Positions 38,556 through 63,376 of a DNA stretch of 64,000 nt are shown piece after piece (within the stretch, counting starts at the first letter, position 1; each line of letters starts with the position of its first letter). Under the pieces are notes generated by a model. That model searched no databases. It was not told the DNA's origin and was given only the letters and a program-made list of their open reading frames with translations. The DNA is taken from NCBI GenBank assembly GCA_022402465.1, contig JAKRSH010000043.1, positions 62,001 to 126,000 on the forward strand, given 5' to 3'. Source of the stretch: Leptospiraceae bacterium. Lineage in GTDB: Bacteria; Spirochaetota; Leptospiria; Leptospirales; Leptospiraceae. Position numbers and translations under genes: made by a program.

Positions 38556-38590
38556 GAGGGATTTAAGATCAGAGACGGTAAAATAAATTG

Positions 38591-39310
38591 ATGAAAACAA
38601 AAATTTTAATATCAATTGGAATTTTAATCACATCTTTTTTATTAATTTATAAAGCATTAGATCTAGGTTTAATTTGGTTTGTTTATCCTTCAAAAACCCA
38701 ATATCCGGTTAGAGGAATTGACGTATCTAATCATCAAGGAAAAGTAAATTGGAGTTTAGTTCCAAAAAAAGACATCTCTTTTGTGTATATTAAGGCAACT
38801 GAAGGTGGGGATTTTAAAGATAAATCATTCATGTATAATTGGGATGAAGCTAAGAAACATGGTTTTAAAGTTGGTGCATACCATTTTTTTACCTTATGTA
38901 AAACAGGATCCGAACAAGCAGAAAATTTTATTCAAAGTGTTCCAAAGCAATTTGATTCACTACCTCCTGTCATAGATTTAGAATTTGTCGGAAATTGCAA
39001 AGAAAGACCTAATATTGAAAATGTCCAAAAAGAAATTTCTATTTATCTCGAATTAATTGATAATCACTATCAAACAAAAACGATATTATATTTAACAAAT
39101 GAGTTTATTGAAACTTATTTAGAGGATAATTTTTTTAACCACCCTATTTGGATTAGAAATATATTTTTTCATCCAAATACATTTTCAAAGATTGAATGGT
39201 TAATGTGGCAATATAAGAGTACAGAACGTGTCGAAGGAATTTCTGGTCCAGTTGATATTAATGTTTTGAATAGAAATTTAGAAAGTCTTACTAAGTTAAA
39301 CAACCTTTAG
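38591..39310 (+). CDS. GH25 family lysozyme-like hydrolase
   Basis: About 239 residues with a membrane-proximal hydrophobic start (signal or anchor, ILISIGILITSFLLIY) and a GH25 catalytic barrel: RGIDVSNHQGKVNW, FVYIKATEGG, GAYHFFT, PPVIDLEF and WQYKSTERVEGISGPVDIN. The Asp of GIDVSNHQG and the Asp/Glu pair in VIDLEF match GH25 catalytic positions. Preceded closely by the SpoIID-like gene. Probable N-acetylmuramidase; the rest of the cell wall function is inferred. Confidence 0.9.
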   Translation: MKTKILISIGILITSFLLIYKALDLGLIWFVYPSKTQYPVRGIDVSNHQGKVNWSLVPKKDISFVYIKATEGGDFKDKSFMYNWDEAKKHGFKVGAYHFFTLCKTGSEQAENFIQSVPKQFDSLPPVIDLEFVGNCKERPNIENVQKEISIYLELIDNHYQTKTILYLTNEFIETYLEDNFFNHPIWIRNIFFHPNTFSKIEWLMWQYKSTERVEGISGPVDINVLNRNLESLTKLNNL

Positions 39311-39408: not shown

Positions 39409-41004
39409 TTAGACATCCAGTCGCTTAACAGATGTTACCTCTTCTGATGTTGCTTTTAAATTTCCCCATTTAAGAGCAATTTTTGCTCCAGATTTCATAG
39501 CATCTTCTTTAATTGAATCTATTATCTCCATTGAAGTATGATCTATGTACTTAGCCTCTGACATATCTATGACGATGTTTTTATTTCCATTATCAATGGA
39601 TTTCTGGACGCTATCATACATCTTAAAAGAATTTAAGAATAATATGGGTGAGGAAATTTTCCAAATACCATTTTTCTCATCGCCGCTTATATTGAGAGTC
39701 CAGTAGTCTTTCCATTTTACACCAGAGATCAATTGAATGAGCATTTTTACTGCAACTCCAGCAAGAATTCCCACCAAAAGATCTATAAAAATTGTAAACA
39801 CTATAGTTGTAAGAAAAACTATGAGCTGTTCTTTTCCTGTCTTATAGTGCTTAATAAATTCTTTGGGTGCAGCTAATCTAAATCCAATTAATATTAGAAT
39901 TGCCGCAAGGGCTGACATAGGTATTAATTTGAGAATTGCTGGAAAGAGTAATAAAAATAATAAAAGAAAAGATCCATGGAAGAAATTTGACCAAACAGAT
40001 TTGGCTCCATTTTCAATATTTGCCTTAGAACGAACAATCTCAGCTATGATAGGTAGACCACCAATGAATCCTAAGAGCATATTCGCAAGTCCCTTACCTA
40101 TCAACTCCTGATCCATATTTGTTGATCTTCTTAATGGATCAATTTTGTCAACAGCAGATGCACTTAACAAAGATTCAAGACTTGCTATAAAATAAATCAT
40201 CAGAGTGTGAAACCAAAATACAAATGTTCCTACTGATGAAAAATCAGGAAAAATAATCGCTTCTTTCATTGAAGAAGGAATTTGAACTAAGTAATGTGTA
40301 TCAGCAAGATATTCTTTACCAAAGAAGTTGTATTTGGAAGATACATTAATATTGAAATATTCTACTAAAGCAACGCCAGCAATTACTGCAAGTAGAGGTG
40401 CTGGAATCTTATTCAAATAAGGAATCTTGATAAATTGAAAAAAAAGCAAAATCCCAATTGCAACCAATCCAATAAGAAAAATTTCAGGATTCAAATCCAA
40501 AATACGTGATGGAAATTCTAAATACAATTCCCAGGGTGCTTTTGCAATTGGACTAACTCCAATTAATACAAATAACTGTTTAGAAATAATTATCAGTCCA
40601 ATAGAAGCCATCATTCCATGAACTACAGAAGATGGAAAAATTTTCCCTAAGAATCCTTTTCGAAATACTCCTGTAAAGAACTGAAAAACCCCAACAATAA
40701 CCATGGCAGCAAGAGTTCTTTTGAATCCTAGCATACTATCTCCATGGCCAAGTCCTTCAATCGAATCGATAATAATTACTATGAGTCCAGCTGCTGGACC
40801 ATTGATGGTAACAAATGAACCACCAAATATAGAAGCTATGACTCCACCTACAATACCAGCTAACAAACCAGCTGTGGGAGGTGCTCCACTTGCAACTGAG
40901 ATCCCCACACAAAGTGGTAAAGCGATTAGAAAAACAACAAAGCCAGACAAAACGTCCGTTTTCGCATACTTCTTCCAATCTTTTTGAATACTTCGAAACT
41001 CCAT
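39409..41004 (-). CDS. SulP-family anion transporter with C-terminal STAS domain
   Basis: 531 residues: about 12 TM segments, with the SulP fold signatures VFLIALPLCVGISVASGAPPTAGLLAGIVGG (split here), KGLANMLLGFIGGLPIIAEIVRSKANIENGAKS, then a cytoplasmic STAS domain (about 440-531, VIDMSEAKYIDHTSMEIIDSI). SulP members carry sulfate, bicarbonate or other anions. It is the last gene of the 7-gene operon, starting 3 bp after the NuoB-like gene stops. The STAS sequence lacks an evident phosphorylatable Ser at the D-hydroxyl pair (it has DHTS). Coupling with the hydrogenase-like complex points to bicarbonate or other anion uptake, an inference. Confidence 0.93.
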   Translation of the reverse strand: MEFRSIQKDWKKYAKTDVLSGFVVFLIALPLCVGISVASGAPPTAGLLAGIVGGVIASIFGGSFVTINGPAAGLIVIIIDSIEGLGHGDSMLGFKRTLAAMVIVGVFQFFTGVFRKGFLGKIFPSSVVHGMMASIGLIIISKQLFVLIGVSPIAKAPWELYLEFPSRILDLNPEIFLIGLVAIGILLFFQFIKIPYLNKIPAPLLAVIAGVALVEYFNINVSSKYNFFGKEYLADTHYLVQIPSSMKEAIIFPDFSSVGTFVFWFHTLMIYFIASLESLLSASAVDKIDPLRRSTNMDQELIGKGLANMLLGFIGGLPIIAEIVRSKANIENGAKSVWSNFFHGSFLLLFLLLFPAILKLIPMSALAAILILIGFRLAAPKEFIKHYKTGKEQLIVFLTTIVFTIFIDLLVGILAGVAVKMLIQLISGVKWKDYWTLNISGDEKNGIWKISSPILFLNSFKMYDSVQKSIDNGNKNIVIDMSEAKYIDHTSMEIIDSIKEDAMKSGAKIALKWGNLKATSEEVTSVKRLDV

Positions 41005-41007
41005 AAT

Positions 41008-41832
41008 CTATGTTCCTTGCTTGAGAAACTCAAGCCACTTAACCTTAAAATCAAAATCTCGTCTCCCCATAAATGTCAGAAAGGCTCTAACCATGACATC
41101 TGGCCTAGGTGGGTCACCAGCTATCCAAAATTTGGGAGTATCAGGGAAAATTCCATGCTTCCATAAACCACCAGAAACAGCTTCGGTCCCCATTGCTATG
41201 ATAGCTCTGGGTTTTGCCATAGAGTCCCAAGCAACATTTAAGCCATGATGCATATTTTCTGATATAGGTCCTGAGACCAACAAAATATCAGCGTGTTTGG
41301 GAGAGGCAACAACACGAACACCAATACTTTCCATATCAAAAACATTATTAAAAGAAGCTCCAATCTCCCATTCAACGCCTGTATTAGAACCGGCACATAC
41401 CTCTCGAAAATTGAATCCGTTTTTATGGACTAGCTTATAAATAGTATCCTCCTTTAAGGTTCCTATAGCTTGTGGAAGATCTTTGCTTGATTCTAGGATA
41501 CCTGAAGAGTTATAATTTACTTTCAAATCATCTCTACTAGCTGAATAAACATCAACAAAGCCTGACTCAAATATTGAATTATTTTCACAAATATCTGAAC
41601 AAAGAGAACATTGCAAGCAGGCACCATAATCAAAACTTATCTTCTCAGATTGAACTTCTATGCAATGAGTTGGGCAAATTGCTTCACAGCTCTTACATTC
41701 AACACATATGGATATATCTCCTTTATAAGCAGGGATTCCTCTTGCCTTTGCTGAGAGACCATTGTGTTTACTTAAATCTAAGGTTACATGTGGTTTAAAA
41801 AGATTAAAAATCTCTTGGAGGAAACCTATCAT
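41008..41832 (-). CDS. Ferredoxin/NuoB-like fusion subunit of an NDH/hydrogenase-related complex (cluster cysteines lost)
   Basis: 274 residues. Residues 40-85 hold two intact ferredoxin [4Fe-4S] motifs: Cys43/46/49/53 and Cys72/75/78/82 (HyfH/NuoI-type). Residues 125-274 are NuoB/HyfI-like, but the usual GSCNGC is GSNTGV (Asn150, Val153), the third cysteine is Glu217 (MGTEAVSGG) and the fourth is Asp240 (GDPPRP). All four ligands of the proximal N2-type cluster are therefore missing. These two subunits are normally separate genes. Overlaps the upstream gene by 4 bp. Peripheral arm protein. Confidence 0.86.
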   Translation of the reverse strand: MIGFLQEIFNLFKPHVTLDLSKHNGLSAKARGIPAYKGDISICVECKSCEAICPTHCIEVQSEKISFDYGACLQCSLCSDICENNSIFESGFVDVYSASRDDLKVNYNSSGILESSKDLPQAIGTLKEDTIYKLVHKNGFNFREVCAGSNTGVEWEIGASFNNVFDMESIGVRVVASPKHADILLVSGPISENMHHGLNVAWDSMAKPRAIIAMGTEAVSGGLWKHGIFPDTPKFWIAGDPPRPDVMVRAFLTFMGRRDFDFKVKWLEFLKQGT

Positions 41833-43241
41833 AAGTCTACTCCTGCATATGAGTGATTGAAGGATTTATTTAATAAAGGAAAATCTCCTATCAACATTTC
41901 CCTAGCTGCAAGTTCTAGAGAATGCCAATTCAGTACAGAAGGATCGCGGTAGTAAATCTTATCGATTTGATTATCTACTCCCCATTTAAAAGCAACCAAA
42001 AGCCCACCTCGCCATGCTTCAGCAAGTCCATACGTGATTTCCTCATCTGATGCTTTCCTGGAATCTAAGTCATAAAGCTTCCATTTTGTCATTAAATCTG
42101 TCCATTCTATTTGATTGGATGCAGCCTGGATAATAGTTACGCATTTTTGAATATCATAATACCTTAATAAGAATCTGGACCAAGAATCTCCTATAAGTTT
42201 ATGATTTGTTGGATTCTGGAAAAAATTAGAATCTAATTCTTCATACAATGGTTCAGATTTTCTAATGTCAATTTTTGAAAGACTAGATCGTGCAGTATGT
42301 CCACTAAATCCATACTTCCAAGATTGATCGCTTGAAATGGTACCTACATTTTGCATACGTTCACGAAGAGTACTAGATGCGATTGCTCTTTCAATATGAA
42401 ACTTGAGATTCTTTAACCATGAATCAAATCTCTTTAAGTATTTTTGAATATCGTCTAGGCTTGTTTTAGAATTAAATCTAGATTGAAAAGGCATAAGAGC
42501 AAATCTACCAAAACGTGAGCCAGTTAATAATTCCATCCATCCTAAAGGAAAACCTCGTTCTGTTGAACAAACACCCAGCAATGGATAAAATCCAACATCT
42601 CCTGCTATCCCTCCTAAATCTCCTACATAAACGGCAAGTCGTTCCGTTTCTAGCAGAATTAATCTATACAGTTCTTCTGATTTTGAAATCTTTGAAGGGA
42701 ATTTTGATTCAATCGCTCGTGTTATAGCCAAGCTATTCGCTATGCTAGTATCTATTGTTGATGAAGAAAGCAAGTTAGCAATTTCAAAAACTGATTTACC
42801 CACACAAGCATTTAATATATTTCTTCTTTGAAATCCTAGTCGTATACTCAAGTGGCGAATTTCTTCTCCTCTAACAGAGAAGCGGAAGTGGCCAGGTTCT
42901 ATCACGCCAGCATGGATGGGACCTACTGCATGGGAATAATCTAGATTCGTTAATGGAACTTCTAATTTAGTATAATCGAATCCTCTTATACCCTTGGACG
43001 AATTATACAAATAGTTCAATTGATCCATTCTATGTGTTGAAAGATACCTCTCTTCAGATAGCAAGGAGTAATCTTCATCCCAAGTTAATCCAAAATTATA
43101 ACGTAGTAAGGAAATAGGAATACTTGGATCATTTAAATTTGCTTTGAAATCAGCATTGTTGACCTCAGAAATTATAGAGGAACCGGTATGGTAAAATTTT
43201 AAATTTTCAAATAGTCCAGTAACTACTTTTCTAGATTCCAT
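41829..43241 (-). CDS. NuoCD/HyfG-like large subunit without NiFe cysteines
   Basis: 470 residues. Starts with a NuoC-like segment, then AVGPIHAGVIEPGHFRFSVRGEEIRHLSIRLGFQRRN, the fold of group 4 hydrogenase/NuoD large subunits. Where hydrogenases have RICGIC, this protein has TIDTSI: Thr162 and Thr165 replace CxxC. The C-terminus (FNHSYAGVDL) lacks the second cysteine pair. It thus cannot hold a NiFe centre of the known kind. AGGAG precedes the ATG; overlaps neighbours by 11 and 4 bp. Belongs to the Ehr-like (energy-converting hydrogenase related) group. Confidence 0.86.
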   Translation of the reverse strand: MESRKVVTGLFENLKFYHTGSSIISEVNNADFKANLNDPSIPISLLRYNFGLTWDEDYSLLSEERYLSTHRMDQLNYLYNSSKGIRGFDYTKLEVPLTNLDYSHAVGPIHAGVIEPGHFRFSVRGEEIRHLSIRLGFQRRNILNACVGKSVFEIANLLSSSTIDTSIANSLAITRAIESKFPSKISKSEELYRLILLETERLAVYVGDLGGIAGDVGFYPLLGVCSTERGFPLGWMELLTGSRFGRFALMPFQSRFNSKTSLDDIQKYLKRFDSWLKNLKFHIERAIASSTLRERMQNVGTISSDQSWKYGFSGHTARSSLSKIDIRKSEPLYEELDSNFFQNPTNHKLIGDSWSRFLLRYYDIQKCVTIIQAASNQIEWTDLMTKWKLYDLDSRKASDEEITYGLAEAWRGGLLVAFKWGVDNQIDKIYYRDPSVLNWHSLELAAREMLIGDFPLLNKSFNHSYAGVDL

Positions 43242-44454
43242 AAAGTTCTCCTACTAGTTCTAAATTCATAATCCCATAAATGCCCCATCCTATGATTAAT
43301 AAGAACAATATGCTAACTATTGCTAACCTTCCATTGATTAATTTATATTCTGAATATTTAATTTGTTTAGAATCTTCAATAGCCCAGATATTATAAACTT
43401 TTGAGACAAGTAAAGAAAAGAAAATTAAGCTTAAGAATGGAATCAATAAGTTTAAGTACATTTTGCTCTGAATGGAAAGTTTAATAATTAGAAAATCAGT
43501 CAAAAATGCAGGTGAAACTGGAAAAGCAAATGCAAAGAATAGACTACCAAAATATAATATTTTTACTTTTTTATTGATTTCTGAAAGACGAAAAATTTGA
43601 TCTAAATATTTACTTCCTGATTCTATTCTAAGAATACCCATAGTTAAAAATACTAAAGTCTTCAGAAGAACTGTCCCCACCAAAATATAAAGAAAGATTG
43701 AAAATGGGATCTCCATCCAAATGATCCAGGCTAAGGCACCAGTATGGAAAAGTGCAATTTTAGCAGCTATTCGCCTAATATCATTTCTTTGGTAAAGCAT
43801 CCAGATTGAATGTAAGCATGTGGCTGAGCCTAAGACTGGCAACAATAGTCTTGCCGAGAATATAGATGGATTCCAAATTCTATCTATGGCAACTAATTCA
43901 CGTAATACTAAGGCAACTGTAACTGGAATCAAGGAAGCAATCAAGGAGGAGACTTGTGTTGGACTTTCTCCATAGGTATCACCAACCCAAAAATGATTGG
44001 GCCATAAACCCATCTTCGCTGTGTATCCATAGATTGCTAATGTTAAGCCCAAGTTAACAATAGGGCCTGTAGAGGATTGAACCTGCTTCAATGCATAAAT
44101 ATTCAAAGAACCATCTGAGCCGCCAGAGAAGGAAACCAGTATGAGTCCCAGGAAAGAAATTCCTAAACCATAGGAGTTGATTACAAGAAATTTCCACGCT
44201 ATCCTAGAAGATTTTACAGTACCTGAACTTGAGATCAATAAGGCTCCGAAGAGAGTTGAGGCTTCAATGAATACCCAAGATGCTGCAAAATTTTCAGTAA
44301 ACCATGATAAGGCTAAGCTCAAGAAAAATAGTGTAGTTGCTGTTAGCCAAATCCATCTTCTGGGCAATTTATGAGTTGGGAAGAAAATCCAAATAATCAT
44401 AACTGCAAAATAACTTATAAAACCAGAAATCAATAAGGGTAAAAATTCCATCAT
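43231..44454 (-). CDS. NuoN/HyfF-like antiporter-type membrane subunit
   Basis: 407 residues, about 11-12 TM helices. The antiporter core is recognisable: LAIYGYTAKMGLWPNHFWVGDTYGESPTQVSSLIASLIPV, with the TM7 Lys (TAK), but the second conserved Lys after the HXW loop is not in its usual place. Shorter than NuoN of complex I. Part of the proton/ion translocating membrane arm. Overlaps HyfE-like and HyfG-like genes by 4 and 11 bp. Confidence 0.82.
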   Translation of the reverse strand: MMEFLPLLISGFISYFAVMIIWIFFPTHKLPRRWIWLTATTLFFLSLALSWFTENFAASWVFIEASTLFGALLISSSGTVKSSRIAWKFLVINSYGLGISFLGLILVSFSGGSDGSLNIYALKQVQSSTGPIVNLGLTLAIYGYTAKMGLWPNHFWVGDTYGESPTQVSSLIASLIPVTVALVLRELVAIDRIWNPSIFSARLLLPVLGSATCLHSIWMLYQRNDIRRIAAKIALFHTGALAWIIWMEIPFSIFLYILVGTVLLKTLVFLTMGILRIESGSKYLDQIFRLSEINKKVKILYFGSLFFAFAFPVSPAFLTDFLIIKLSIQSKMYLNLLIPFLSLIFFSLLVSKVYNIWAIEDSKQIKYSEYKLINGRLAIVSILFLLIIGWGIYGIMNLELVGELYGI

Positions 44455-45056
44455 CCTTTCTCCTGTAAACTCAAAGGATTGAGTTTAAGCACAACGGCAG
44501 CAACAATCACAAGTACGGCGTCAAGAAAGGTTCCAAATTCTAAACCAATGGGAAGTCCTTTATCTAAAACCATCGTTAGAGCAAAGATCCCATTTTCAAA
44601 GACAACAAATCCAGCAATCAAAGCCATCCAGTTCTTCTGAACTATAAAACCTAAAATTCCAACATAGATTACTAAAATTACATAAATAAGTCCAATTCTA
44701 TGGGTATCTAAGGGGAAAGATTGTATTCTTTCAGTTAGAAATATTGCTATTAAGATACCAAATACAAGAAAAAAGGCAGTAGCAAGATACCCAAACCTAG
44801 GAGTTGTTGATTCTTCAAGCCAAGCTTTTCTAGCAGTCCAAAACAAAATGTACGGGGTCAGGACAGCCTTAAATAGGATAACCATAGAAATTAAAATCCA
44901 AGTATGGCTTTCATGGATGGGATGAACCTTAAGAACTGTAGGAATTAGTAGAAAACCTTGAAAGGATAGCAAGGATATAAGTCTGGTTAAGCGATTTTCT
45001 ACCAAGACCATTAAGCCCGAAAGAAATAACAAAAGATATGCAAAATCAAATATCAT
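44451..45056 (-). CDS. HyfE/NuoK-like membrane subunit
   Basis: 201 residues with six TM helices. The C-terminal half (AGFVVFENGIFALTMVLDKGLPIGLEFGTFLDAVLVIVAAVVL, not quoted in full here) matches the HyfE/hydrogenase-4 component E pattern of Glu residues in TM helices. Small ion-translocating subunit of the complex. Overlaps its neighbours by 4 and 11 bp. Confidence 0.8.
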   Translation of the reverse strand: MIFDFAYLLLFLSGLMVLVENRLTRLISLLSFQGFLLIPTVLKVHPIHESHTWILISMVILFKAVLTPYILFWTARKAWLEESTTPRFGYLATAFFLVFGILIAIFLTERIQSFPLDTHRIGLIYVILVIYVGILGFIVQKNWMALIAGFVVFENGIFALTMVLDKGLPIGLEFGTFLDAVLVIVAAVVLKLNPLSLQEKG

Positions 45057-45918
45057 GTAATTTTACCAAAGTCCCAAGAAATAAAATCACTAAGAAAATC
45101 AATCCCATAAGTTCAGGAACCCAGGACCACTTTCGCCTAGCACAAAAAGCTTCCCAAATTCCTAAGCCTACAGCTGATAAAAGAACTGCTGGTATAACCC
45201 AAAAAGGAATCCAAGAAGGACTCAAATAATCATTCTTATGAAATTTTGTATGCTCCAAACCAAGTTTTACTAAAAGTGTAAGCATGGTTGCGGATTTGAT
45301 TTGGTAAGATATTTCAAACATAGCAAATTTTCTTCCCGAGGCTTCAAGCAACATTGCTTCATGAACCATAGTAAGTTCGAGATGAGTTCTTGGATCATCA
45401 AAGGGTGGCTTTGAGAGTTCCACTAAGACAGCATAGAAACATGCCACTAAGAATAAGGCTCCCATAGAAAACGAAGTTATGGATGCATCCATTTGGATAT
45501 GAGATTGAGCGACGAGTATCATTAGAAGCAAAGTAGGTTCAGTAGATATGGAAAGTAAGGTTTCTCTTGAAGAACCCATTCCACCGAAGGAGGTTCCATT
45601 TTCAGAAGCGAAACCAGTTAAAGCTACTCTTTCCAAAACCAAAAAAAAGACTATAAATACAAAGGATGTCCATTCAAAGGCAACAATGGACCAAGCTATC
45701 AAACTTCCCATAATAGCAATCATTGGAGCATATTCTATAAAAAAGCCTGGTTGCGAAGAGACAACTGCTTGCTTCTGAAGATTACGATAAATATCTCTTA
45801 AGACCTGAGTAATAAAGGGACCTTTTCTATTTTGAGCTTTAGATCTTATCTTTCGAATGATCCCTCCAACTAAGAGAGGTAAGAGTATAAAGCCTATGAG
45901 TTGAAATATTTCTTTCAT
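45046..45918 (-). CDS. NuoH/HyfC-like membrane subunit
   Basis: 290 residues, about eight TM helices. Diagnostic segments: ENGTSFGGMGSSRETLLS and ELSKPPFDDPRTHLELTMVHEAMLLEASGR, the amphipathic loop and Glu-rich helix of NuoH/HyfC, which links the peripheral arm to the antiporter subunits. Acidic residues are kept. Gap of 1 bp to the HyfB-like gene, overlap of 11 bp with the HyfE-like gene. Confidence 0.85.
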   Translation of the reverse strand: MKEIFQLIGFILLPLLVGGIIRKIRSKAQNRKGPFITQVLRDIYRNLQKQAVVSSQPGFFIEYAPMIAIMGSLIAWSIVAFEWTSFVFIVFFLVLERVALTGFASENGTSFGGMGSSRETLLSISTEPTLLLMILVAQSHIQMDASITSFSMGALFLVACFYAVLVELSKPPFDDPRTHLELTMVHEAMLLEASGRKFAMFEISYQIKSATMLTLLVKLGLEHTKFHKNDYLSPSWIPFWVIPAVLLSAVGLGIWEAFCARRKWSWVPELMGLIFLVILFLGTLVKLHDI

Positions 45919-45919
45919 C

Positions 45920-47497
45920 TTAGTATCCTAGAACATCTTTAATGAAGAATAAAAACAAAATCACTAAAACTCCACCACTCGAAATCGCCAGATAATTACT
46001 TAGATCTTCTTCATCTAACATTTGCTTTACTTTATACCAAGAAGGATTCAGCATAGTATGAATCGTTTTATAAACAAAATTGTCTAATCGTGATTCACCA
46101 TTTGATTTTACTAGGTATCTACCCAATGAGTTTCGAACCGGTAAGGAATATGTCTCGGCGGTAACAGATGTTCTGGTAATATCTGCTTTTGATCCACAAT
46201 CCCAGGTGATTTCTTCAGACTTTTTCTTGGATGAAAATACTAAAATTAAAACAATAAAACCTAAGCTAACAAAAGATAATAAACCGGAATCCCTTAACCA
46301 AATTCCCATATTTCCAGGAAAATAATTAAACCATAAAAAAGGAAGAATCAATGAAGGTAAAATTATTCCTGCTCCCAACCAATATAAATCTAAGTTGTTT
46401 TTGCTTCTTTCTATAGCAGGCTTAAATTCCATCTCCCCTGTTCTAATGGTAGATAAGAAAACTGTATAAAATAATCGTAAATGAGAAACACCACCCGTCA
46501 CTAGGCCTGTAAATACTAAAACTAATACTGGTAATACGGCTATTGAACGACCTGTAGGAATATCCAAGACCTGACTGCTTAGCAATAGATACATACTTTC
46601 AGATAAAAAACCAGAAGTTCCTGGGATTGCCATAAAGCTCATTGTTCCTATACCAGCAAGTGCAGTGGGTATACCGAGCAATCTACCCATACCACGAATA
46701 TTATTTAAATTATTAAGATAGGGTGATTTCCATATTCGACCTAAAAGTGAAAATTGAAAGACCTTAGAAATAGAATGTTGAACCAAACCAAAATAAAATA
46801 ATATTATAAATGGTTTCTCTAACACTTGAAAGCTCGCATCTGTGGTAGTCTTCGCTATTCCTCCAAGAGCAATGCACAACCATAGAAAATTGAGCTTCTC
46901 TATAGAGCTGTATGCAAGCAAAAGCGAAACCTTAGATTGAAAGTAGCTACTAACTCCACCTACAAAAACTCCTATACTTGCGATCGAGGCTAGTACCAAG
47001 AAAAAAATAGGCTCATTCCAAAGAGGGTAAACAAATTCCATAAAAAGGAAAAACGGAAAAATTGCCATAACGCCTGATGAGAAGGAATTGATTTCGGCAG
47101 TCCCATTCTCATAGGCGCTAGGCATCCAAAAGTGGAAGAGAAGAAGAGATGATTTAATGAAAACAGCAATAGATAGAAAATAAGTTCCAATAATTGAATG
47201 ATTAGGTAGGAAAATCCAAACAGATAAGAAAATAGCAGAAATACTTCCACTCACAATAAAAGACGAGATGCTTTTTCCTTGGTCTTTATGATCTCTAGGA
47301 TATAAAAAGAAATATATATAGCTTAGAGACTCTAAACTAATAACTGTTAGAAAATTCTTCTTAGTGTAAAAAGAGAAAAGTAAGAGTAGACATTGAAGTG
47401 CTATTAAGAAACGAGAATATTTACCCGATTGCTTGGCGAGTAAGAGACCAATGGTTACTATAATGCATAAAGCTAAATAGAGAATTGTTTCGTTCAA
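45920..47497 (-). CDS. NuoL/HyfB-like antiporter-type membrane subunit
   Basis: 525 residues with about 14 TM helices. The core SLLLFHFWMPSAYENGTAEINSFSSGVMAIFPFFLFMEF matches the HXWLP region of NuoL/M; Lys in VFIKSSLLLFHFW is kept, but the usual GVMIK Lys is GVMAI. A late segment (SEEITWDCGSK) is common in HyfB-like proteins. Start is TTG at 47497 with GGAAG upstream. First large gene of the operon, 40 bp after the small secreted ORF. Confidence 0.85.
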   Translation of the reverse strand: MNETILYLALCIIVTIGLLLAKQSGKYSRFLIALQCLLLLFSFYTKKNFLTVISLESLSYIYFFLYPRDHKDQGKSISSFIVSGSISAIFLSVWIFLPNHSIIGTYFLSIAVFIKSSLLLFHFWMPSAYENGTAEINSFSSGVMAIFPFFLFMEFVYPLWNEPIFFLVLASIASIGVFVGGVSSYFQSKVSLLLAYSSIEKLNFLWLCIALGGIAKTTTDASFQVLEKPFIILFYFGLVQHSISKVFQFSLLGRIWKSPYLNNLNNIRGMGRLLGIPTALAGIGTMSFMAIPGTSGFLSESMYLLLSSQVLDIPTGRSIAVLPVLVLVFTGLVTGGVSHLRLFYTVFLSTIRTGEMEFKPAIERSKNNLDLYWLGAGIILPSLILPFLWFNYFPGNMGIWLRDSGLLSFVSLGFIVLILVFSSKKKSEEITWDCGSKADITRTSVTAETYSLPVRNSLGRYLVKSNGESRLDNFVYKTIHTMLNPSWYKVKQMLDEEDLSNYLAISSGGVLVILFLFFIKDVLGY

Positions 47498-47537
47498 TGA
47501 ACTACTTCCTTAAAATTATTTTTAGAAAAAATAAAAT

Positions 47538-47858
47538 TTAAGAAATAGTAGGTGGGGGCTGAGAAAGATAATTAGGAATAGAATGAGAGAATGGAGATGG
47601 ATTAAATCGAATTGAGTCAGATAGCTTTAATAAAGATAAAGGAAAATGGGAAGAGGATTTGCCTTCAAAAAATTTCTCAAGATCTTCAATTTCATTGAGA
47701 GGCTGTTCTTCAAAGCTAGTAAGCCTTTCACTTGCATCAATTTTCTCTGAGTATTGGGATTGAAATTCAAAAGATGAATTTGGAATAATGGGCAAAGCTA
47801 TAGAAAATAACAAAACAAGCGATAATGCTTTAATTCTATTATTTATTTTGAATACCAT
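47538..47858 (-). CDS. Small secreted/anchored protein at the head of the hydrogenase-like operon
   Basis: 106 residues: hydrophobic N-terminal helix (ALSLVLLFSIALPIIP), then a charged, Pro-rich tail with EIEDLEKFFEGK. No recognised domain. It begins with ATG at 47858, about 2-3 bases after the predicted transcription start, and ends 40 bp before the NuoL/HyfB-like gene. It could be an accessory subunit or a translation-coupled leader; function unknown. Confidence 0.55.
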   Translation of the reverse strand: MVFKINNRIKALSLVLLFSIALPIIPNSSFEFQSQYSEKIDASERLTSFEEQPLNEIEDLEKFFEGKSSSHFPLSLLKLSDSIRFNPSPFSHSIPNYLSQPPPTIS

Positions 47859-47867
47859 TATGTTTAC

Positions 47868-47896
47868 ATTAAATTCCCTTTGATTTATGTTGTCAA
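47868..47896 (-). promoter_or_regulatory. Promoter of the hydrogenase-like/SulP operon
   Basis: On the minus strand -35 TTGACA (47891-47896), 17-bp spacer, -10 TTTAAT (47868-47873). Start is predicted near 47861, so the mRNA for the 106-residue ORF would be nearly leaderless. Divergent from the LolD-type gene. Confidence 0.7.
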
Positions 47897-47914: not shown

Positions 47915-48586
47915 ATGATACGAATCCAGAATTTAGAAAAAAATTATAGAATTGGCAGTACTTCTGTAAATGCATTGAAGAATGTAAGTCTAGAAGTATC
48001 TGAATCACAATTTGTTACTTTGATGGGACCCTCTGGTTCAGGCAAATCCTCACTGCTCAACATACTTGCTTCCATAGACAAACCAGATAAGGGCTCAGTT
48101 GAAGTTTTCGGATTTGATCTAAATGCCCTTAGCCAGAAAGAATTGAACCACTATAGAAGATCAACGGTGGGAATCATTTTTCAATTTTTCAACCTACTCC
48201 CTTATCTATCTGCACTAGAAAATGTTAGCCTACCCTTATACTTAGCAGGTGTCCCTACGAATCTTGCTCATAAACGAGCTGCTCTTTGCTTAGAAATGGT
48301 AGGCTTGAAAGATAGGATGCTGCACAAACCTACAGAACTTTCAGGAGGCGAGCAACAAAGAGTCGCTATCGCAAGATCTATTGTTCACAATCCGAAACTA
48401 CTTCTTGCAGATGAACCAACAGGCAATCTTGATTCAGATACAAGTCATAAAATTATGGAATTGCTACTTCACCTCCGAAAGGAAAATGGTTTTACCCTTT
48501 GGATAGTAACTCACAATCCTGCCATTGGAAGTTTAGGTGACATTCAAATTCATTTGAAAGATGGTAAAATGCTGGATGAATCTTAA
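47915..48586 (+). CDS. ABC transporter ATP-binding protein, LolD/MacB type
   Basis: 223 residues. Walker A GPSGSGKSSLL, Q-loop GIIFQFFNLLP, signature LSGGEQQRVAIARS, Walker B LLLADEPTGNLDSDT, switch His in VTHNP. The length and GNLDS match LolD/MacB/FtsE-type ATPases for ABC systems with an FtsX-type permease. The permease start lies within its last codons (overlap), implying translational coupling. Confidence 0.93.
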   Translation: MIRIQNLEKNYRIGSTSVNALKNVSLEVSESQFVTLMGPSGSGKSSLLNILASIDKPDKGSVEVFGFDLNALSQKELNHYRRSTVGIIFQFFNLLPYLSALENVSLPLYLAGVPTNLAHKRAALCLEMVGLKDRMLHKPTELSGGEQQRVAIARSIVHNPKLLLADEPTGNLDSDTSHKIMELLLHLRKENGFTLWIVTHNPAIGSLGDIQIHLKDGKMLDES

Positions 48587-61549: not shown

Positions 61550-63376
61550 ATGATTGCTAAGTTAAGAATCTTTTTTTTACTTTCTATTCCCTTCCTTTCT
61601 GCGGCATGGATTACACTTTCTAGCGCAAATCTTGAATTTGAATCTGAGAACCTTGATAAAATATATGATAAATATACCCTATCGAAGCTTGAATCTACAA
61701 ATGATTCCAATCTTCTTCGAAGACTCTCTCTTTATCTAAGGGGAACCATACCCGATGGCAAGGAGTCCTTAGAATTTGCGAAAAACACTGATTCCGATAA
61801 GCTTCGTTTAACTAGCATTCAATATTTACAAAGTCCAGAATTTGCAGAATACTGGGCTACCAAACTAGGCTCCTTATTTCGTGAACAGACGAATAGAAGA
61901 GATGAAGTCTATGGTGGATTTTTCAAATACCTTGCAAATTCACTCCATGAAGACAAACCGTACGATGTTTTGGTTAGAGAAATGATTACCGCAGAAGGCG
62001 ATCTTGAGAAAAATCCAGCAGGCCATTTCTATGCTAGAGATTCTGCTGACCCCTTACAAGTTGCTGAGTATGTTGGTCGTGTATTCTATGCAAAGCGTGT
62101 AGGATGTGCTAGGTGCCACGATGATAAATTTGATAAATCGTTTACTCAAAGAGATTACTATGCAATTGCAGCTTTCTTCAGCCAACAGTTCTACCGCACA
62201 GGTTGGTGGGATGAGAAAAGATTCCAAGGGGAAGCTATACCCAACATCCCCAATGAAGATATAGAAAATCTCCCTCTGAAAGAACAGAAAATCGTTAAGG
62301 ATAGAAATAGAGAATGGGATCAAGCATATTGGAACAAAATGTCCAAAGAAGAAAGAGAAAAACATAAAAATAAACATTTATTGAAATTTGGGAAGTTATA
62401 TTATGAAGAAAAATTAGGGATTCGCTTTCCAATAAAAGATGATAAACCCGGAGGAGATTTAGTCCAAGCTAAATTTCCAGATGGAACAATTCCAGAAATT
62501 AAAGAGGGGTCTGATCGAAGGAAAATCTTTGTAGATTGGTTAGTTGCAAAAGAAAATCCCAGATTTAGGAAAGTTATTATCAATCGTATCTGGAGAGAGC
62601 TTATGGGTTGGGCGTTTTTCACTCCAGAAGATGATTGGAACAAAGATACCCTTATCCAAGCAGAAGATGTCTTGAATCACTTAGACCAAGTCTTCTTAGA
62701 AAAAAATCATTCTATCAAAGAACTAATTTTCTATATCGTTAATTCCCAAGCTTATGCAAGACGAACACCAGCAAATGAAGAAGAGAAATCAAACCGAATC
62801 CAATTTTTTCCATCTAGACGTATGGATCCGGACCAGTTGATGAATTCTATTGTAAAAGGAACTCTAGAAGTTGACCAACCAAAATGGTTGTTCAGCGAAC
62901 GAAGATTAACTCAATTTTTTCCAAAAAAAGTTAATTTCAAAGGAAAGGGAGATCTCAAGATTCCTGATAAAGATCAAAAAGATATTAAATTTGCATCTCA
63001 AATGGAAAGACCAGCAAGACCGAACCAATTTTTAGCGATCTTTGGTTCAGGCAATAGAACCGATGTTGAAGATGACCATACTGAAATAACAATAGACCAA
63101 GTCTTAACTCTTATGAATGGAAGATTAACTGGAAAGGCAGCCTGGGACTTTGGTGGAAAAGATTCTCAAAGTGTAAAAACATTTGAGGCAACAAAATCTA
63201 TGAGTTCCGTTGTTAATGATCCCTTTCTAATTCTTTTAGGTAGGGACATGACGGGAAAAGAAAAAGAATTATTAATCTCAAATCTCCCCAAAGGAGACGG
63301 ACACTTTGAACGCCAAATTCTTCAAGATTTTGTTTGGGCAATTATGAATAGCCAGGAGTTCCTTCATGTCAACTAA
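61550..63376 (+). CDS. DUF1549-domain protein (partner of DUF1501 protein)
   Basis: 608 residues. Signal-like N-terminus (IFFLLSIPFLSAAWI). DUF1549 features: RLSLYLRGTIPD, a haem-like CARCH (VGCARCHDDKFD) and RDYYAIAAFFSQQF, then DUF1553-like FRKVIINRIWRELMGWAFF. These proteins are abundant in Planctomycetes. The next gene (DUF1501) overlaps by 11 bp, the standard pair. Function unknown; the CARCH motif may bind haem. Confidence 0.85.
   Translation: MIAKLRIFFLLSIPFLSAAWITLSSANLEFESENLDKIYDKYTLSKLESTNDSNLLRRLSLYLRGTIPDGKESLEFAKNTDSDKLRLTSIQYLQSPEFAEYWATKLGSLFREQTNRRDEVYGGFFKYLANSLHEDKPYDVLVREMITAEGDLEKNPAGHFYARDSADPLQVAEYVGRVFYAKRVGCARCHDDKFDKSFTQRDYYAIAAFFSQQFYRTGWWDEKRFQGEAIPNIPNEDIENLPLKEQKIVKDRNREWDQAYWNKMSKEEREKHKNKHLLKFGKLYYEEKLGIRFPIKDDKPGGDLVQAKFPDGTIPEIKEGSDRRKIFVDWLVAKENPRFRKVIINRIWRELMGWAFFTPEDDWNKDTLIQAEDVLNHLDQVFLEKNHSIKELIFYIVNSQAYARRTPANEEEKSNRIQFFPSRRMDPDQLMNSIVKGTLEVDQPKWLFSERRLTQFFPKKVNFKGKGDLKIPDKDQKDIKFASQMERPARPNQFLAIFGSGNRTDVEDDHTEITIDQVLTLMNGRLTGKAAWDFGGKDSQSVKTFEATKSMSSVVNDPFLILLGRDMTGKEKELLISNLPKGDGHFERQILQDFVWAIMNSQEFLHVN

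Follow-up and report, generated by a model that had tools for sequence, protein, structure and literature searches.

A seven-gene operon in Leptospiraceae joins an Ehr-type complex without N2 ligands to a SulP transporter: a candidate bicarbonate-uptake module

A seven-gene operon lies on the minus strand of a 64,000-nucleotide stretch of DNA (the window; positions 62,001 to 126,000 of contig JAKRSH010000043.1, assembly GCA_022402465.1) from a Leptospiraceae bacterium. Six of its genes would encode an Ehr-type membrane complex related to respiratory complex I, and the seventh a SulP transporter of a distinct clade that is predicted to carry bicarbonate. The complex is proposed to be an Ehr variant not described before in the literature searched, with a role in carbon uptake. 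From the sequence comparisons set out below, the operon is, on balance, likely to be a module for the uptake of dissolved inorganic carbon in the form of bicarbonate.

The pairing of complex and transporter is conserved within the family. Eight Leptospiraceae genomes were sampled, seven with readable flanks at the locus. The HyfG-like subunit occurs in all eight, and none of 40 other genomes of the class has it at E 1e-15 or better. A bicarbonate-type transporter is positioned directly downstream of the six-subunit complex in all seven readable loci. The slot is occupied by SulP in the window genome, G002, G004, and G006; by SulP-SbtA-PII in G003; by SbtA-PII-SulP in G007; and by SbtA without SulP in G005. 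The SbtA proteins (loci L030, L031, and L032) match PF05982 (Sbt_1) at E 1e-112 to 1e-121, with 376-405 bits against a cut-off of 27, and of their PII-like partners one is strong (2e-16) and the other falls under the Pfam cut-off. In G001, the contig ends inside HyfG, and the sole detected SulP of that genome sits elsewhere.

Several further arrangements of these genes were seen in the family. G007 (L032 1-8441; bin contamination 7%) appears to carry two facing Ehr gene sets with a SbtA-PII-SulP-LysE block between them. The source genome has an unlinked SbtA-PII pair (L186 3799-5083, G000:C38) on the same contig, ~215 kb from the operon, and its SbtA is close to the Ehr-linked type. Other Leptospiraceae have beta-carbonic anhydrase-SbtA-PII operons (L188 3068-5083, L189 2746-4693) with a second type of SbtA and a beta-carbonic anhydrase that apparently bears a signal sequence.

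Outside the family, the pairing recurs in a second phylum. A single window protein used as query found no related loci, and relatives were recovered with an alignment-based profile. Run against 84,980 species genomes, the profile returned 570 relatives; among the best 80 of these 570, the six-gene order is general but the adjoining transporter is not. A search through 390 genomes of the order Cytophagales (phylum Bacteroidota), prompted by a metagenome-assembled genome (MAG) of Cyclobacteriaceae (L107), yielded 15 with the ferredoxin-NuoB subunit. A transporter adjoins the complex in seven of these 15 loci, being SulP in six and SbtA with PII in one. The adjacent SulP is downstream in five loci and upstream of HyfB in one (L239), and in two more loci a SulP gene is found farther along the contig. 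The SbtA of L245 was recognised by a home-made hidden Markov model only (365 bits). Twenty other Spirochaetota loci showed no transporter pairing, except for a weak, partial SulP match on the opposite strand in L232.

The preliminary description had proposed that the complex and an anion transporter belong together. This is borne out: the pairing is kept across genera, recurs in a second phylum, and persists where the non-homologous SbtA refills the slot, and the SulP adjacency, when looked for in other genomes, is not confined to the source genome. Conservation in Leptospiraceae and Cytophagales rules out chance adjacency of complex and SulP.

The linkage belongs to a particular kind of Ehr, namely that lacking the cysteine ligands of iron-sulfur cluster N2. 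Transporter linkage was found in 14 of 34 N2-less Ehr loci against 1 of 73 ordinary Ehr loci (Fisher 1.4e-7, a value that ignores kinship of the loci). The single ordinary Ehr with SulP nearby, in the deltaproteobacterial MAG L062, has one open reading frame (ORF) between them, and at 1 of 73 a general rule that Ehr goes with SulP is rejected. Two Spirochaetota outside Leptospiraceae (L227 and L236) have N2-less Ehr of Bacteroidota type with no transporter adjoining, which suggests acquisition by transfer. The Ehr of L093, a MAG titled Alphaproteobacteria, falls inside the Bacteroidota N2-less clade; this MAG is probably misbinned.

The absence of two metal sites defines the complex. No CxxC motif is present in any of 114 HyfG sequences, the operon HyfG also having been aligned to MbhL, so all are Ehr and not hydrogenases. 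The [NiFe] ligand cysteines that characterize group 4 [NiFe] hydrogenases are missing, and a hydrogenase was rejected on this ground. Respiratory complex I does not fit either, as the operon has no NuoEFG and the N2 ligands are absent. What is found is the Ehr arrangement of HyfB-C-E-F-G plus ferredoxin/NuoB in one operon, with a large subunit lacking CxxC. The N2 cluster is retained in most Ehr sampled and is not given as defining Ehr in the papers cited here. Of the earlier label “hydrogenase-related,” the relationship stands, and the wording is too weak, since [NiFe] and N2-type ligands are both lost. With both absent, electrons are unlikely to reach an active site in the usual manner of complex I or of a hydrogenase.

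The loss of N2 ligands is confined to specific positions. When the NuoB-like subunit was compared column by column in 54 ordinary Ehr, 26 Bacteroidota-type, and 7 Leptospiraceae sequences, exactly three columns were conserved in ordinary Ehr (Cys in 53-54 of 54) yet lost in both N2-less groups, and all three are N2 ligand cysteines. They are replaced by Asn, Glu, and Asp in Leptospiraceae (7/7 each) and mostly by Asp, Asp, and Asn in the Bacteroidota type. In the operon, the replacements are N150 (codon 41383-41385), E217 (41182-41184), and D240 (41113-41115), all on the minus strand, at former ligand columns 1, 3, and 4. Such consistent substitution by acids and amides argues for a retained role rather than decay of the site. 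The ferredoxin domain keeps two 4Fe-4S motifs (C43, C46, C49, C53, C72, C75, C78, and C82; 41587-41706, minus strand) that are invariant in the seven Leptospiraceae. Four ferredoxin cysteines are near-invariant across all Ehr groups, and many other N2-less sequences keep little beyond these. An AlphaFold model of the NuoB-like subunit (pLDDT 72.5, the loop of the former cluster being modelled with low confidence) still matches subunit 7 of FHL, MbhJ, and NuoB of complex I. Charged residues (Glu, Lys) are conserved in HyfB and HyfF and, by analogy with complex I, indicate that these are ion-translocating subunits.

The ancestry of the N2-less complexes allows two histories. In the HyfG tree, the Leptospiraceae and Bacteroidota groups stand apart on long branches, and a single N2-less clade is not rejected by the approximately unbiased test (p 0.39). 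The tree is compatible both with a single ancient loss of N2 and spread of the module by transfer and with two separate losses or assemblies; convergence is not claimed.

Phylogeny also bears on which anion is carried. In a tree of 31 SulPs, one clade (99/99) holds five of the six linked SulPs of Leptospiraceae together with all eight from Cytophagales that are linked to the complex or lie near it, separate from the unlinked SulP paralogues of the same genomes. Its sister clade includes three Leptospiraceae SulP-beta-carbonic anhydrase fusions and the SulP of G006, which occupies the slot there. The operon SulP, the sole SulP gene of the source genome, has as PDB neighbours SLC26Dg (5da0, 5e-29) and BicA (6ki1, 2e-23). 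It scores 138.5 bits against the NCBIfam BicA equivalog NF050096, whose cut-off is 880, and its best NCBIfam match is DauA-like, far under the cut-off. It is a SulP but not a BicA orthologue. In cyanobacteria, SbtA and BicA are both known to transport bicarbonate (PMC13144422, PMC10880623). Because SbtA can replace SulP and the sister clade contains carbonic anhydrase fusions, bicarbonate explains every transporter in the slot; it is very probably the substrate of the linked transporters and is strongly favoured over sulfate as the predicted SulP anion.

The Cytophagales proteins of this clade have features of their own. The Ehr-linked SulPs (L239-L253; for example, L107 5998-8199) share a conserved C-terminal domain of ~200 aa that is not in Leptospiraceae and gave no match in any comparison tried. 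A carbonic anhydrase hidden in this extension was considered and dropped, as hhalign to the fused carbonic anhydrase domain found nothing. In L107, a short ORF after SulP has a sub-threshold carbonic anhydrase match.

The operon itself consists of seven intact minus-strand ORFs spanning 39409-47497, ~8.1 kb. From upstream to downstream, these encode a HyfB/NuoL-like antiporter subunit (45920-47497, 525 aa, TTG start), a HyfC/NuoH-like subunit (45046-45918, 290 aa), a HyfE-like membrane subunit (44451-45056, 201 aa), a HyfF/NuoN-like antiporter subunit (43231-44454, 407 aa), a HyfG/NuoCD-like large subunit without [NiFe] ligand cysteines (41829-43241, 470 aa), a ferredoxin plus NuoB/HyfI-like small subunit (41008-41832, 274 aa), and the SulP-STAS anion transporter of the Ehr-linked clade (39409-41004, 531 aa). 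Spacing from HyfB to SulP is a 1 bp gap, overlaps of 11, 4, 11, and 4 bp, and a 3 bp gap. The seven genes, overlapping or at most 3 bp apart, were found where the preliminary description had placed them, and Pfam and NCBIfam agree with the subunit identities it had given. The Pfam matches are NADHdh for HyfC (1e-21), Proton_antipo_M for the antiporter subunits (2e-15 and 1e-14), Complex1_49kDa for HyfG (1.5e-20), Oxidored_q6 (5e-13) plus Fer4 for the ferredoxin-NuoB protein, and Sulfate_transp (5e-60) with STAS (3e-7) for the transporter. HyfE was identified through NCBIfam NF008556 (5e-12, under its curated cut-off).

Both flanking genes (38588-39310 and 47915-48586) are on the opposite strand, which makes the seven-gene block a closed operon candidate. 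A scan of the operon for promoter- and terminator-like sites gave matches no commoner than in shuffled sequence, so a single transcript is presumed. The source genome amounts to 3.99 Mb in 45 contigs and has a separate canonical nuo operon, its NuoB cysteines kept, on contig C15.

Ahead of hyfB is a small conserved leader ORF (47538-47858, minus strand, 106 aa) with a hydrophobic N-terminus and a C-terminal PPP. Counterparts ahead of hyfB exist in six of seven Leptospiraceae, with a variable middle and an invariant C-terminal PPP (L028 340-669; L029 11308-11673; L030 3501-3818; L033 14680-15009; L034 212-559); none was seen in G005, and Pfam gives no match for the ORF. In several species, base pairing is possible between the proline codons and the ribosome-binding site of hyfB. 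Because of this pairing, and because polyproline can stall ribosomes, the ORF may serve as a translational-coupling or arrest-peptide leader.

How the complex could serve the transporter is suggested by the parts that are kept. The complex is probably a non-redox, or only ferredoxin-gated, ion-translocating complex, and complex and transporter are likely to be functionally coupled. The complex may drive or gate the transporter or be in physical contact with it; the preliminary description had suggested driving or gating, or else that SulP supplies the ion of the complex, and the genomic comparisons favour neither direction. In the proposed mechanism, the antiporter-like subunits, which keep charged residues in the membrane, would form an engine translocating H+ or Na+; of the ferredoxin clusters, the complex retains two in Leptospiraceae and one in Bacteroidota. 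The engine would maintain or gate the ion gradient in its vicinity, on which a bicarbonate importer coupled to Na+ or H+ would draw; this importer would be of the SulP/BicA type or an SbtA accompanied by a PII-like protein. In complex I, the pumping stroke begins with a redox-linked protonation, whose place would be taken here by the acid and amide residues at the old N2 site. BicA is Na+-dependent. The same is true of cyanobacterial SbtA, a Na+-dependent symporter (PMC13144422). For this reason, and because no zinc-site candidate was found, an ion circuit is the preferred form of coupling, and an ion pump or antiporter is tentatively put forward as its mode, at somewhat less than even chances. 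A bolder version, in which carboxylates and amides in place of N2 uncouple the complex from electron transfer and H+/Na+ flux is physically coupled to bicarbonate import through SulP or SbtA, would add another class to the inorganic-carbon machines derived from complex I; this version is doubtful.

Several points weigh against the proposed uptake module. The tree offers only 2-3 independent contrasts, too few to test N2 loss against linkage. Twenty N2-less loci have no adjoining transporter, so N2 can be lost without the pairing. SulP families as a whole transport many anions, and the Leptospiraceae SbtA is distant from the characterised cyanobacterial protein (E 3e-23 to 7cye).

Other explanations divide according to what the complex does and whether it matters to the transporter at all. 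The complex could itself hydrate CO2 vectorially, using ion flux or ferredoxin oxidation to make bicarbonate in the manner of NDH-1MS CupA/CupB or DAB/MpsAB, with SulP or SbtA recapturing the product. Other NuoL-type complexes have been turned to such use (NDH-1MS, DAC; PMC6981117, PMC13144422), cyanobacteria with NDH-1MS also depend on BicA and SbtA, and here the ferredoxin clusters are kept and the complex is retained alongside bicarbonate transporters. Nevertheless, the operon contains no CupA (not searched for as a profile), DabA, or active carbonic anhydrase subunit; HyfG and ferredoxin-NuoB have no new conserved zinc-capable His or Cys, the shared change at the N2 site being Cys to acid or amide; and the source genome already has a DabB-DabA pair elsewhere. 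CO2 hydration is accordingly unlikely. A ferredoxin-driven redox pump is improbable as well. Here the ferredoxin domain would take up the electrons, which would bypass N2 and pass to an acceptor, soluble or in the membrane, close to the remaining cluster; the pumped Na+ or H+ would serve bicarbonate import and other needs. In complex I geometry, the last ferredoxin cluster would without N2 be far from the quinone/NiFe cavity, and the operon encodes no acceptor-binding subunit. The strength of this idea lies in the ferredoxin cysteines, four near-invariant in all Ehr sampled, N2-less ones included, and eight invariant in Leptospiraceae, and in the ferredoxin dependence of Mbx-type relatives (PMC6349859).

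That the two systems merely share a promoter through history, without functional coupling, would account for the single clade of linked SulPs in two phyla by one ancient joining plus transfer, and 8 of 15 Cytophagales loci have no transporter next to the complex. Simple hitch-hiking does not, however, predict that the slot be taken over by unlike transporters sharing a substrate class, as with SulP and SbtA in both groups and another SulP type in G006, or that the transporter shift upstream, as in L239; co-transcription alone is therefore quite improbable. The transporter might instead carry sulfate or another anion, the linkage reflecting sulfur or pH metabolism. The SulP family takes its name from sulfate and has dicarboxylate carriers among its members, and the nearest NCBIfam entry, albeit far under its cut-off, is DauA-like. 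Against this, SulP is replaced or supplemented in both phyla by SbtA (PF05982, E as low as 4e-121) and a PII-like partner, and the sister clade has fused beta-carbonic anhydrase. A sulfate permease is thus very unlikely, and of the two anions named earlier, bicarbonate gains support at the expense of sulfate.

Inorganic carbon genes elsewhere in these genomes were also recorded. The source genome carries the DabB-DabA pair (L255 2224-6397, G000:C35; PF10070, E 6e-255), which the other seven family genomes lack, and it has no beta-carbonic anhydrase, of which six of the other seven have one. Such DAC-type systems and carbonic anhydrase are reported to coexist rarely (PMC8567241), and the source genome is in keeping with this. 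Given DabB-DabA present and beta-carbonic anhydrase absent, selection seems to act on inorganic carbon supply in the lineage.

A link to bicarbonate transporters that crosses phyla, with replacement of the transporter, offers a first concrete and cheaply testable role for the widespread Ehr. The N2-less Ehr also offers a natural test of coupling in complex I, as the pumping subunits are seemingly kept and the supposed trigger cluster lost. If bicarbonate uptake is its true function, this would be a third bacterial use of complex I parts for inorganic carbon, besides NDH-1MS and DAC. Full-text literature, in open-licence papers only and hence as weak evidence, yielded no report of SulP/SbtA-Ehr pairing or of N2-less Ehr; hydrogenases and complex I both go unmentioned in a review of the toolkits for inorganic carbon (PMC10880623).

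Among known systems, the closest is Ehr itself. Rv0082-Rv0087 of M. tuberculosis is one such complex. Papers on Ehr in several phyla leave its function unassigned or unstudied, or link it provisionally to formate dehydrogenase (PMC6349859, PMC7894505, PMC10284858). Like GSU0739-45 of Geobacter sulfurreducens and the Riflemargulisbacteria Ehr described in those papers, the operon complex has six subunits, HyfB-C-E-F-G plus ferredoxin-NuoB, and no [NiFe] CxxC, and its gene order is that of the relatives recovered here; it differs in its loss of N2-type ligands and its joining to SulP or SbtA. NDH-1MS is likewise a complex I-derived membrane module in a carbon-uptake context with SulP-type BicA and SbtA (PMC6981117, PMC13144422), but it has a ferredoxin-to-quinone redox drive and the zinc protein CupA, whereas the operon is without CupA (no profile search was made for it) and without N2 ligands. 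DAC (DAB2/MpsAB; DabA PF10070 plus NuoL-like DabB) also employs a NuoL-type subunit for inorganic carbon supply, including in heterotrophs; it has two subunits, one the beta-carbonic anhydrase-like DabA, whereas the operon has a set of six Ehr subunits without DabA, and its transporter is a separate protein. BicA and other SulP (SLC26) proteins share the Sulfate_transp and STAS domains of the operon SulP, which belongs to its own Ehr-linked clade. SbtA/SbtB corresponds to the Sbt_1 (PF05982) protein with a PII-like neighbour in the slot of relatives, where the SbtA, distant from Slr1512, is an alternative to SulP beside the Ehr complex.

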